Notes under the pieces: model-generated
The model's database searches: none
What the model was told of the DNA's origin: nothing
What the model saw: only the letters and a program-made list of their open reading frames with translations
Shown here: in pieces, positions 23,674 to 30,655 of the stretch
Layout: each line of letters begins with the position of its first letter
How positions within the stretch are numbered: the stretch's first letter is position 1
Source: Actinomycetota bacterium
Lineage (GTDB): Bacteria; Actinomycetota; Acidimicrobiia; Acidimicrobiales; Ilumatobacteraceae
Length of the DNA: 37,922 nucleotides
Reading direction: 5' to 3'
Assembly: GCA_016870865.1 (NCBI GenBank)
Contig: VGAC01000017.1
Location: 1-37,922 of the forward strand
Translations under genes and position numbers: made by a program

Positions 23674-24378
23674 GTGAGCGAACTCGGACCACAGGACTTC
23701 ACGCGGGATCTGTTGCGGTGGAGTGAAGCGCTGGCCGCAATCGCGCGCACCGGCATGGGCTTCACCCAGAATCTCTACGAGCGCGAGCGCTACGAGGAGG
23801 TGCTCCACGTTGCCGCCGACATCAAAGCCGCCGTGGACGAGGCATCCGAGGTACGGCGCGAGCGAGACCATTTTGTCCAGGAGTGGATGGAAAGCATCGG
23901 CGAAGGAGTTCCGGGCTATGTCACGCCCAAGGTTGCGATTGGTGCGATCGTGGGCAACGAAGCAAACGAGATACTTCTCGTACAGCGCAAGGACAGTGGA
24001 TTCTGGTTGTATCCCACGGGATGGGCCGACGTGGGTTACTCGCCTGCCGAGGTGGCGCTGAAAGAGGTGCACGAGGAAACCGGCATCGAATGCGAGGCGG
24101 TCCAACTCCTGGGCGTGGTCGACGGCATGCGGATGGGATTCTCGCGCTTTGGTATGTACATGCTGTTGTTCCATTGTCGTGCAACCGGAGGCGAGTTGCG
24201 CGGCCATCCGCTGGAAACTTCGGGTGTCGGCTGGTTCTCGCGGGATCAGTTGCCGTACCCCACGGCCGGTGCGCAGTGGTGGGGACCGCTGGCGTTCAAC
24301 GCTCTCGACGGGGGTTCACACACTGCAACCTTCGATGCTCCCCGCGCCCCTATATGGCGCGGTGGTGAGTCGCCCTAA
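23674..24378 (+). CDS. NUDIX hydrolase with N-terminal helical domain
   Basis: A 234-residue protein: an N-terminal helical domain (about residues 1-80, like that of other NUDIX proteins acting on NDP-sugars) and a C-terminal NUDIX fold. The NUDIX box runs GWADVGYSPAEVALKEVHEE and ends TGI; the core EVHEE is intact, but Lys replaces the Arg and Tyr the first Glu of the consensus. The fold should cleave a nucleoside diphosphate-linked compound; the substrate is not known. Its end overlaps the convergent PAC2 gene by 4 bp. Confidence 0.88.
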   Translation: MSELGPQDFTRDLLRWSEALAAIARTGMGFTQNLYERERYEEVLHVAADIKAAVDEASEVRRERDHFVQEWMESIGEGVPGYVTPKVAIGAIVGNEANEILLVQRKDSGFWLYPTGWADVGYSPAEVALKEVHEETGIECEAVQLLGVVDGMRMGFSRFGMYMLLFHCRATGGELRGHPLETSGVGWFSRDQLPYPTAGAQWWGPLAFNALDGGSHTATFDAPRAPIWRGGESP

Positions 24379-25328
24379 CGGCCGTCCTGGTCGCGGAGGA
24401 ATTGTTCGACTTCCTCCATCAGCGTGTCGGTGTCGTCGACGTCGTTATCGGTGAGATCGACCGTGTCGTCACCGCTGTCGGTTGCAAAGTCGAACTGCAA
24501 CTGGCTGTCATCGTCCTCGACGTCGAAGTCGTCGTCGTCGATCGACATTCCCGAGTCCGACATCGTCTCGAGACGACCGACGTAGGACTGCAGGTCGTCG
24601 TCGTCTTCGATCATCGAATCAAGCTGCGACTCGTAGGCCGCAACGGTGTCCATCATGTGACCGACCGGAGCGGGCGTACCGATGATGTCGCAGGCGCGCT
24701 GCATGAGTGCAACCGCCGCCTTCGGTGAGCTGATTTGTCCCGCGTATGCGGGGACTGCTGCCCACAGCGATGCCGAGGGCACGGATGACCTGCCGCAGAC
24801 GTCGTGCAGCACGCCGACGATGCCCGTGGGACCCTCGTAGCGAGAACGCTGAAGGCTGTAGCGATTGACGAGCGAGTCATCCGTCGCGGTACCGATGAGT
24901 TGGACCGGCCGCGAGTGCGGGACGTCGGCCAGGAGTGCACCGAGTGTGAGAAACATCTTTGCATCGTATTTTTCGAAGACACCCAACAATTGGTCGGTGA
25001 ACAGCCGCCAGCGAAGGCTGGGCTCAGGTCCGAGAACCAAGATCACGTCGGTACCCGCGGAGCGGGCGTGCCACAGTCCGATCGTTGGCCACACGATGCG
25101 ACGCACACGACCACCGCTGAGTTTCACCTGTGGACGAATGCTGGCGAAATCCGTGAAGAGTTCAGGATCGATTTCGGCCAGTGCGGTGGCGCCCCACCCT
25201 TGGACGAGATTCTGGAGTGCCGATGATGCGGCATCAGCGGCGTCGTTCCATCCGGTGAAGGCGGCAATGACGGTGGGCTTCACGAGCCTGGGTTCGGAAA
25301 TCCAACGGATGTGTTCGGTGCCGCCCAT
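24375..25328 (-). CDS. PAC2 family protein with acidic C-terminal tail
   Basis: A 317-residue member of the PAC2 (proteasome assembly chaperone-like) family found in actinobacteria; AAFTGWNDAADAAS near residue 22 and the GPEPSLRW segment are characteristic. The last 80 residues are very acidic (runs DDDDL, SIDDDDFDVEDDD and a D/T-rich stretch) and end in MEEVEQFLRDQ, a tail typical of the actinobacterial family. The role is unknown; archaeal and eukaryotic relatives assist proteasome assembly. Actinobacteria often have proteasomes, but none is in this window. It starts 29 nt after the redoxin gene; TAGCGT 9 nt before ATG may allow separate expression. Confidence 0.85.
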   Translation of the reverse strand: MGGTEHIRWISEPRLVKPTVIAAFTGWNDAADAASSALQNLVQGWGATALAEIDPELFTDFASIRPQVKLSGGRVRRIVWPTIGLWHARSAGTDVILVLGPEPSLRWRLFTDQLLGVFEKYDAKMFLTLGALLADVPHSRPVQLIGTATDDSLVNRYSLQRSRYEGPTGIVGVLHDVCGRSSVPSASLWAAVPAYAGQISSPKAAVALMQRACDIIGTPAPVGHMMDTVAAYESQLDSMIEDDDDLQSYVGRLETMSDSGMSIDDDDFDVEDDDSQLQFDFATDSGDDTVDLTDNDVDDTDTLMEEVEQFLRDQDGR

Positions 25329-25357: not shown

Positions 25358-26452
25358 CTATTTCGGACGATCCAAATTGGCCCGCACGTAGTAGTTGCCG
25401 CCCCCGCCTGCCGCCAGAACGTCGTCGAGCCAGTTGCCTTCGTACACGTCGTTCGGGCCCTGCATCAGATCGTTTTCCGTCGCACCTTCGGGCGTGGTCA
25501 CCAGAGTCCATGCTTGTCGTTTGTAAGTCCAGTTGTCGGGGTCGAGTGCGTGGGCGCGACGCCAGTAGGGAATCGCTGCATCGTGGCCAACCGTGCGATG
25601 CAGGTGTTCGCCCATCGCAAAACACGCGGATGCGAGCGCATTGTCGTTCGAGATCGCTCGCGACACCCCAACGACTTCGTCCGGGGTCATTGCGTACGGA
25701 CTCACCGAACCCTTGCGCACCCAGTCGAGCAGTGCCGCGCGGTACGCGGCGGAGTCATCGGGGATCGCCTTGACCTCGGTCATCATGCGCTTGAGTCGGT
25801 CGGGGACTCCGTCGGGGATTTGCATGTCGCGGGCAGGGCTGCGTTCGATCGACGCTTGTTCGGCTGGCCGCACGATGACACCGTTTTCGTCGATCCACAC
25901 GGCCATCGGGACGTTGATGAAACCGAAGAGTTCGTTGGTGCAGTGCGTCGTGTCGATCAAGGACGGATGCGTCGGGGACGCCGCATCAATCCATGGTCTG
26001 GCATGTTCGGGTTTGATGTCGAGGGCGACCGTCACGACGGTGCCACCAAGCGGTTCGATTTCACTATGCAGTGCCTGCCACCCGGGCAGGGCCGTTCTGC
26101 AGCCTCACCAACTTGCCCAGGCAATCATGATCACCCTGCGACCGCGCAGTGACGCGAAGTCGAATCCACGTCCCATCACGTCGATGAGTGATGCAGGAAA
26201 CCGAGCGACCGCGCTCGACAAGGTTCGACCCGTCACCGTCGCGGGTCCCAGTGACCACACGCCGTGATCGGCATCGTGGACGATGGGCATGCCGAGGCGG
26301 TCGGCCACAACTTCGACGTCGACCATGCCGTCGGTCAGGGCACCGGGTGCGGGCACGCAAAGCTCTCCGCGGCAGATGCCCTCGGGCTTGGCGTCCCATC
26401 CGCTCGTCGAGGAGAACTCATCGGCCGTGACGCGAAGGCTTGAGAAGATCAT
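25358..26452 (-). CDS. Redoxin/TlpA-like selenoprotein (UGA-decoded Sec116) with TPR-like tail
   Basis: A 364-residue protein read through an in-frame TGA at 26107-26105. Before it the frame gives VIMIAWASW, after it GCRTALPGWQALHSEI. In actinobacterial relatives this site is W-A-S-W-C-G-C-R, so TGA occupies the first, attacking cysteine, giving U116-G-C118. Downstream, VVTVALDIKPEHARPWID and the cis-proline segment NVPMAVWIDENGVIV are normal. An N-terminal domain of about 85 residues and a C-terminal TPR-like segment (ALASACFAMGEHLHRTVGHD and following) complete the known architecture. A perfect hairpin with a GGU loop follows the TGA (26074-26090). The likely role is thiol or peroxide redox chemistry in the cytoplasm, as no signal peptide is seen. 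Start ATG 26452 has TAAAGT 6 nt before it. Confidence 0.87.
26074..26090 (-). promoter_or_regulatory. Bacterial SECIS element of the redoxin selenoprotein
   Basis: On the mRNA, a perfect 6-bp stem CCUGCC / GGCAGG with loop CGGGU begins 14 nt after the UGA. The loop GGU is at +26 to +28 from the U of UGA, slightly farther than in E. coli fdhF but within the range of bacterial SECIS elements. Confidence 0.75.
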
Positions 26453-26509: not shown

Positions 26510-26941
26510 ATGAGCGCTCAGATCGAAATCGCCCGCGAGGCCACCGACGAACTTGTGGCCGCGATGGCTGTACTCATGCCGCAGCTCTCGAAGTCGAACC
26601 CGCCGCCCACCAAGGCCGAACTTGCAGACCTCGTGGATTCCCGAGCCTGCACGATGTTCATCGCCCGCGTCGAGGGACGCATCGTCGGTTCGTTGACTTT
26701 GGTGATGTTCCGTATTCCCACGGGCGTGCGGGCATGGATCGAAGACGTCGTCGTGGACGATTCGGCCCGCGGCCATGGTCTCGGCGGGGCACTGAGCCGT
26801 GCCGCACTCGACTTTGCAAAACAGCACGGGGCCATCACCGTCGACCTGACCTCGCGGCCGTCACGCGAGGCAGCAAACCGCCTGTACCAGCGCATCGGAT
26901 TCGTGGCACGCGAGACCAACGTCTATCGCTACACGCTCTGA
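26510..26941 (+). CDS. GNAT family N-acetyltransferase
   Basis: A 143-residue GNAT protein. AWIEDVVVDDSARGHGLGGAL holds the acetyl-CoA pyrophosphate-binding R-G-x-G-x-G/A motif (R-G-H-G-L-G), followed by the C-terminal REAANRLYQRIGF signature. Acceptor unknown; candidates include amino groups of small molecules or proteins. ATG 26510 is chosen because the fold begins there, and AAGAAT ends 6 nt before it, as before the dienelactone hydrolase gene. It diverges from the redoxin selenoprotein gene. Confidence 0.88.
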   Translation: MSAQIEIAREATDELVAAMAVLMPQLSKSNPPPTKAELADLVDSRACTMFIARVEGRIVGSLTLVMFRIPTGVRAWIEDVVVDDSARGHGLGGALSRAALDFAKQHGAITVDLTSRPSREAANRLYQRIGFVARETNVYRYTL

Positions 26942-30066: not shown

Positions 30067-30111
30067 CACCACGATCGGTGGTGCGAAGGAATGAGTCGGT
30101 TGGGGCCGACT
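30067..30111. terminator. Two hairpins between convergent chrA and gpx genes
   Basis: CACCAC/GTGGTG with a 5-nt loop (30067-30083) and AGTCGG/CCGACT with loop TTGGGG (30094-30111). Neither has a T-tract; the second overlaps the stop of the glutathione peroxidase gene. They may protect or end both transcripts. Confidence 0.4.
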
Positions 30112-30655
30112 ACTTGCCGAGTTCGGCGTCGATGGCCGTGATGATCGCGGGATCATCGGGCGTCACCGTGGGTGCGAACCGCGCGACGACTTCGCCGTTC
30201 TTGCCGATGAGGAATTTCTCGAAGTTCCACAAAACGTCGGGATCCTGATTCGGGGTCATGCCGAATCCCTTGAGACGATCCCGAAAGGCATCGGGGTCGC
30301 CCTGCGCGCGCGGTGCGGCGTTGGTGAGTTCCTTGTACAGCGGGTGCTGGTCGTCACCGACGACACTGATCTTTTCGAACATTGGAAAGTTGACCGAGTA
30401 CGTGCGCGAGCAGAACTCGGCAATTTCTGCATTGGTGCCCGGCTCTTGCGCGCCGAAGTTGTTGGCGGGAAAGCCGAGGACCGCGAAGCCCTTGTCCTTT
30501 TTGTCCCCGTAGATCTTCTCGAGTGCCTCGTACTGGGGGGTGAGGCCGCACTTGGAGGCGACGTTGACGACGAGGAGGACGGTACCGGCGAAGTCCTTGA
30601 GGGACGAGGGCTTGCCATCGATGGTCTTCACCGGAATGTTTTGAATGTTGGACAT
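30110..30655 (-). CDS. Glutathione peroxidase family protein (Cys type)
   Basis: A 181-residue thiol peroxidase. VNVASKCGLTPQYEAL places the peroxidatic cysteine at residue 36; vertebrate and some bacterial relatives have selenocysteine there. GFPANNFGAQEPG holds the conserved Gln-containing loop, and the Trp lies in DVLWNFEKFL. In most bacteria these enzymes use thioredoxin rather than glutathione. Note that this genome keeps Cys here but apparently uses Sec in two other redox proteins nearby. Start ATG 30655 has TAGTTT 6 nt before it, in the 84-bp gap after the MFS gene. Confidence 0.92.
   Translation of the reverse strand: MSNIQNIPVKTIDGKPSSLKDFAGTVLLVVNVASKCGLTPQYEALEKIYGDKKDKGFAVLGFPANNFGAQEPGTNAEIAEFCSRTYSVNFPMFEKISVVGDDQHPLYKELTNAAPRAQGDPDAFRDRLKGFGMTPNQDPDVLWNFEKFLIGKNGEVVARFAPTVTPDDPAIITAIDAELGK

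Follow-up and report, generated by a model that had tools for sequence, protein, structure and literature searches.

Thiol-disulfide oxidoreductases of the ResA/TlpA type are characterized by a CxxC active site together with export or a membrane anchor. In peroxiredoxins, the peroxidatic motif is P-x-x-x-T/S-x-x-C, and selenocysteine (Sec, U) is well suited to peroxidase chemistry. Redoxin-like proteins with a UGC motif have been listed as selenoproteins for some time. The GOS survey of 2008 lists 46 sequences as "Prx-like (UGC-containing)", which were commoner in non-marine samples (PMC2398784), a UGC-containing Prx-like protein appears in another selenoprotein list (PMC9312934), and a 2026 review lists a "UGC-containing TlpA disulfide reductase family protein" (PMC13188914). 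In PMC5029168, to which the review refers for this family, the main text lacks the term "UGC". Our literature searches yielded no functional study of the WAxxUGC/NF041054 family.

Here we describe such a gene in a stretch of 37,922 nucleotides, referred to as the window, which is contig C17 of an Ilumatobacteraceae draft genome (1.95 Mb, 42 contigs, 96.3% complete). The encoded protein matches NCBIfam NF041054 ("WAxxUGC_long") over nearly its entire length, with residues 1-358 aligned to positions 1-352 of the 354-position profile at 488.6 bits (cut-off 300). The same profile matches all 49 members of our set of extracted relatives (A1) at E<=0.001.

Results

The gene and its in-frame UGA

The features of the locus and of the Sec machinery are collected in Table 1. 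The TGA at codon 116 is the sole interruption of the reading frame, and reading it as U gives ...IAWASWUGCRTALPGW..., with 248 residues past the U. A mechanical ORF listing cuts the gene in two, 26105-26452 and 25358-26035. The coordinates, the motif, the length of the continuation and the 6-bp hairpin with a CGGGU loop given in the original prediction were all correct on re-checking. Two relatives belonging to this genus, G415 at 91% and G419 at 85% identity, each contain exactly one in-frame TGA, at the same WASW-TGA-GCR site and with the same hairpin as the window gene. This retention excludes chance or a sequencing error as the source of the TGA. The internal stop codon is very probably read as Sec, the computational evidence as a whole pointing to a selenoprotein gene.

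Table 1. Positions of the gene, its elements, its neighbours and the Sec machinery (window positions unless a contig is given)
Feature	Position	Strand	Remarks
Selenoprotein gene	25358..26452	(-)	ATG 26452, stop TAG 25358; 364 residues with Sec116
Sec codon UGA, codon 116	26105..26107	(-)	within W-A-S-W-U-G-C-R; WASWUGC is residues 112-118
N-terminal domain, residues 1-80	26213..26452	(-)	AlphaFold2 model of the domain alone, pLDDT 89.5
Invariant C27-xxxx-C32 pair	26357..26374	(-)	49/49 members of A1
Redoxin / AhpC-TSA domain, ResA-like fold	25847..26197	(-)	Pfam PF00578, PF08534
Cys118, putative resolving partner of Sec116	26099..26101	(-)	49/49 in A1, Cys demanded by the pattern
Bacterial SECIS-like hairpin CCTGCC-CGGGT-GGCAGG	26074..26090	(-)	6 bp, 5-nt loop
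C-terminal helical, TPR-like tail	25361..25843	(-)	helices in AlphaFold2 model
PAC2-family gene	24375-25328	(-)	same strand, ~30 bp downstream of the selenoprotein gene
GNAT gene	26510-26941	(+)	divergent, upstream of the selenoprotein gene
selA-selB	C1:154992-157819		adjacent, selB directly after selA; both over cut-offs
tRNA-Sec (selC)	C16:15818-15909		64.7 bits (gathering 47); ARAGORN: tRNA-SeC, anticodon TCA

Sec and Cys at position 116

The family was examined at 150 loci, 147 of which contain the motif; four of these have a second copy, resulting in 151 hits. The three loci without the motif were left out (L067 and L068, in which the match starts past the site, and L109). The pattern used to extract the 151 hits demanded Gly-Cys after the site and Trp or Phe four residues before it, with residue 116 left free; for A1, Sec or Cys was also demanded at 116. 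This means that the conservation of Gly-Cys and of Trp/Phe is partly the result of selection. Of the 151 hits, 125 have Sec and 26 have Cys at residue 116. The statement in the original prediction that actinobacterial relatives have Cys here thus holds for a minority of these hits, the majority having Sec. Since some genomes are present in two sources, we also counted distinct 57-nt sequence windows, which number 107 for Sec and 26 for Cys. The record titles of the relatives name Acidimicrobiales/Ilumatobacteraceae, Chloroflexi, Proteobacteria, Acidobacteria, Thermoanaerobaculia and Frankia, several of them being MAG labels that are possibly wrong. Three Frankia records (L153, L162 and L163) contain two copies each, all six of which are Cys forms.

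An order-wide search found a family match in 259 of 397 genomes and, among the matches listed, every one above 200 bits has at least one in-frame TGA. Within the genus, 12 of 13 genomes have a match, ten of them near full-length with one TGA. The gene of G397 is split across two contigs with a TGA in both pieces, and the match in G417 lies in pieces that miss the Sec site. All five genus relatives that were fetched have the TGA at the motif. Two irregular loci were also observed. In L109 (~432-1352), a relative with 87% identity, an in-frame gap of 57 residues, due either to a genuine deletion or to faulty assembly, has removed the active site, the UGA and the hairpin. In L069 (G004, contig C176), two parts of the family gene apparently lie in different frames, suggestive of either a frameshift or an assembly fault.

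A quickly built tree of 134 proteins requires at least 8 switches between Sec and Cys, 5 of which are forced by well-supported branches, as compared with 24.1 changes when the label is shuffled on the same tree. A selA match (E<=0.001) was present in 49 of the 50 genomes with a fetched Sec form, the miss being G063 (78% complete), and in 4 of the 17 genomes with a fetched Cys form, a weak match in G210 being excluded from the count. The association of the Sec form with selA, tallied by hand, gives a Fisher p of 1.2e-9 with kinship ignored; it is not significant when relatedness is allowed for, a test in which no more than 2 to 3 independent pairs were available.

The downstream hairpin

The hairpin begins 14 nt past the UGA and its loop 20 nt past it. 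At its apex, 26084 pairs with 26081 around a GG loop, and U26080 is left unpaired. In the MFE fold of the 48 nt after the UGA, the five inner pairs are kept. The bacterial SECIS model as summarized in the 2026 review places a G in the first two loop positions, 16-37 nt from the UGA, on a stem of 4-16 bp (PMC13188914). The hairpin agrees with this model in loop, G position, stem and spacing, the loop being N-G-[G/U]-N with a closing pair.

Pairing was compared with 1000 shuffles in which synonymous codons were exchanged within columns, a procedure that leaves shared ancestry in the shuffled set. Of the 107 distinct Sec sequences, 105 form all five inner stem pairs. The shuffle already gives 99.6 (sd 0.7), which means that stem completeness is mostly fixed by the conserved codons and that the argument from covariation is carried by the apical pair. 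This pair consists of the third positions of a Pro codon and a Gly/Val codon, which are free as far as the protein is concerned. It is Watson-Crick in 102 of the 107 Sec sequences (C-G in 89, A-T in 7 and G-C in 6), as compared with 78.5 (sd 2.2) in the shuffle, none of the 1000 shuffles reaching the observed count. The A-T and G-C types, as well as stem variants with T-A for C-G, fall in separate clades of the tree. The 26 Cys forms do no better than their shuffles: a full stem was counted in 9 of them (shuffle 9.0) and a Watson-Crick apical pair in 11 (shuffle 10.0).

Sec machinery of the genome

Sec machinery, which the original prediction proposed to look for, is encoded in the genome. The scores of selA (401 bits, cut-off 267.9) and selB (261 bits, cut-off 242.25) are accompanied by a SelB winged-helix domain in the same ORF as the latter, and a tRNA-Sec is present. 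A search of the draft genome gave no match for selD. Among the 31 genomes of the family, the window's own included, selD is over cut-off in 23, and both other genomes of the genus within the 31 (G397 and G412) have it. The selD of G412 lies at 8237-9145 of L178, and its synteny was compared with the window's genome. One flank aligns to contig C21, ending at the start of C21 (~L178 8188, extrapolated), and the other aligns to the start of C34 (~L178 10282). Because the flanks match the starts of these two contigs, the selD of the window's genome probably lies in the assembly gap between them. In some relatives (L170-L173), selD itself has an in-frame TGA, situated in GAG-U-GCK in L170-L172, so that SelD looks like a selenoprotein there.

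Domain structure

The layout of an N-terminal domain, a redoxin domain and a TPR-like tail in the original prediction is borne out by the Pfam matches and by the AlphaFold2 model of the whole protein (pLDDT 95.9, pTM 0.93). The Pfam families AhpC-TSA and Redoxin match 49/49 relatives at E<=5, and the ResA and TlpA profile models also match all 49 members. The best VIA match to the model is the DsbE-like 3gl3 (Z 14.0, 139 residues, 2.1 A), followed by ResA 1st9 (Z 12.8), with TlpA further down. N180-V-P182 of the redoxin domain is presumably the cis-Pro position. None of 150 proteins has a Cys at +3 from site 116, so the centre is U-x-C and not C-x-x-C. A simple hydropathy threshold found an N-terminal hydrophobic segment in 1 of 134 proteins and none in the other 133, which argues for a cytosolic place; the window protein is probably cytosolic. 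The combination of CxxC and anchor that marks ResA and TlpA is not found in the family of the window protein.

Only four positions are occupied by Cys or Sec in all 49 members of A1, namely C27, C32, U116 and C118. The N-terminal domain that holds the first two had no match in the PDB at E<=0.001 by Foldseek and no significant one by hmmsearch (best E 0.93), which does not show that its fold is new. A copper amine oxidase N1-like domain was considered for this part of the protein; it is absent among the Pfam families listed (25 of 33). For the C-terminal tail, a TPR_2 match was obtained at E<=5 for 30 of the 49 members, the best one having 2.4e-6, and the window protein itself matches only TPR_1, at 0.19.

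Gene neighbourhood

Neighbouring genes were clustered over 80 sources, the window and 79 of 80 loci, many of them on short contigs. PAC2 is kept in 20 sources, NUDIX in 15 and a GlnD-like gene in 11; a GNAT cluster (20/80 sources) is mixed with overlapping shadow ORFs. The 80 neighbourhoods gave no hint of a functional partner or substrate, gene order being common to close kin only. A glutathione-peroxidase-like ORF, named by eye, lies at 30110-30655 (-), 3.7 kb from the selenoprotein gene; its sequence, MSNIQNIPVKTIDGKP...VASKCGLTP, has Cys at the usual Sec/Cys site.

Discussion

We are highly confident that the window gene encodes an NF041054 selenoprotein in which UGA116 is decoded by means of SelB, tRNA-Sec and the hairpin, with Sec at the site of the first Cys of ResA/TlpA. 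The redoxin/TlpA-like reading with a Sec-Gly-Cys centre put forward in the original prediction is upheld by the Sec machinery, the Sec/Cys exchange, the covarying hairpin and the ResA-like fold. That prediction had also named what would speak against it, which was a genome without Sec machinery, homologues with a residue other than Cys at the site, or a corrected sequence lacking the TGA. None of these came true; the nearest was the missing selD, which probably lies in an assembly gap. The selenoprotein call is correct. The novelty that it implied did not survive, as the entire architecture is that of a curated family and UGC-containing Prx/TlpA-like selenoproteins have been listed since 2008. 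Since the family is already catalogued, the finding is mostly not new.

Could the TGA be something other than a Sec codon? That a mechanical listing yields two ORFs is what a true stop would give, as would a sequencing error or a pseudogene lesion, the downstream part being dead or separately started. However, relatives at 33-91% identity, in records labelled as several phyla, retain this TGA, both halves of the gene are conserved, and the hairpin covaries. We consider such an explanation highly improbable, and the pseudogene reading was rejected on the conserved TGA in the same-genus relatives. Still more improbable is a changed code in which TGA specifies an ordinary amino acid, Trp or Gly, which would fit the one TGA that is read through. 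TGA is, however, the ordinary stop of several neighbouring genes with Pfam matches (GNAT, GlnD-like, amidohydrolase and chromate transporter), the residue found at the site in relatives is Cys and never Trp or Gly, and the genome encodes Sec machinery. A changed code was rejected on the termination of these neighbours at TGA and on the Cys at the site.

With UGA116 taken as a Sec codon, the question becomes what the Sec residue does. The protein would most likely be a thiol-disulfide oxidoreductase of ResA/TlpA fold with a Sec-Gly-Cys centre. The name "Prx-like (UGC-containing)" recalls another function, that of a selenium peroxiredoxin in which Sec116 would be peroxidatic and reduce hydroperoxides. 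The AhpC-TSA and Redoxin matches of all 49 members are in keeping with it, as are matches to the thiol peroxidase model PRK09437 in 13 of 49 at E<=0.001. In contrast, the Pro at -7 that the peroxidatic motif requires occurs in 0 of 150 proteins, position -3 being Ala in 107 and Ser in 43, and both the uniform ResA/TlpA matches and the best folds, which are ResA/DsbE-like, point away from it. A peroxidase function thus appears rather unlikely, and membership in the peroxiredoxins was rejected as the PxxxT/SxxC motif was not found.

For the thiol-disulfide oxidoreductase, the following scheme can be proposed. SelB and tRNA-Sec would decode UGA116, aided by the hairpin 14 nt downstream. Sec116 would take the place of the first active-site Cys of ResA/TlpA, and the Sec116-Gly-Cys118 pair would cycle through a selenenylsulfide. 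Of the two directions, we lean towards the reducing one. C27 and C32 may constitute a second redox or metal site, which may feed Sec116-Cys118. A single-chain relay, in which C27xxxxC32 passes electrons to or from the Sec-Gly-Cys centre of a cytosolic ResA-like domain, is a tentative and rather doubtful extension of this scheme; if it were true, the protein would be a self-contained four-residue selenoenzyme with its own reductant domain. The invariant C27/C32 pair noted here, in an N-terminal domain without a significant PDB match, offers a concrete lead on the mechanism of the family. The analysis also confirms a selenoprotein family with an unusual Sec-x-Cys centre; the window gene is split by a mechanical gene caller. 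A comparison of Sec with Cys is possible because natural Cys twins exist, those of Frankia L153, L162 and L163 among them.

How does the window protein compare with the systems already described? With ResA, TlpA and DsbE (CcmG) it has the redoxin core fold and the profile matches in common. It differs from them in having U-G-C for C-x-x-C, in the lack of a hydrophobic N-terminal segment (133/134 proteins) and in its extra N-terminal and TPR-like C-terminal parts. Like the UGC selenoproteins listed in the GOS survey and the 2026 review, it combines a UGC motif with an AhpC-TSA/TlpA-like domain. With NF041054, the ResA-like WAxxUGC motif-containing protein, it agrees over nearly its entire length; the table line of that family is silent on activity, SECIS and C27/C32. 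The Sec motif is part of the family name, the window protein has WASWUGC, and no difference was found in the features tested.
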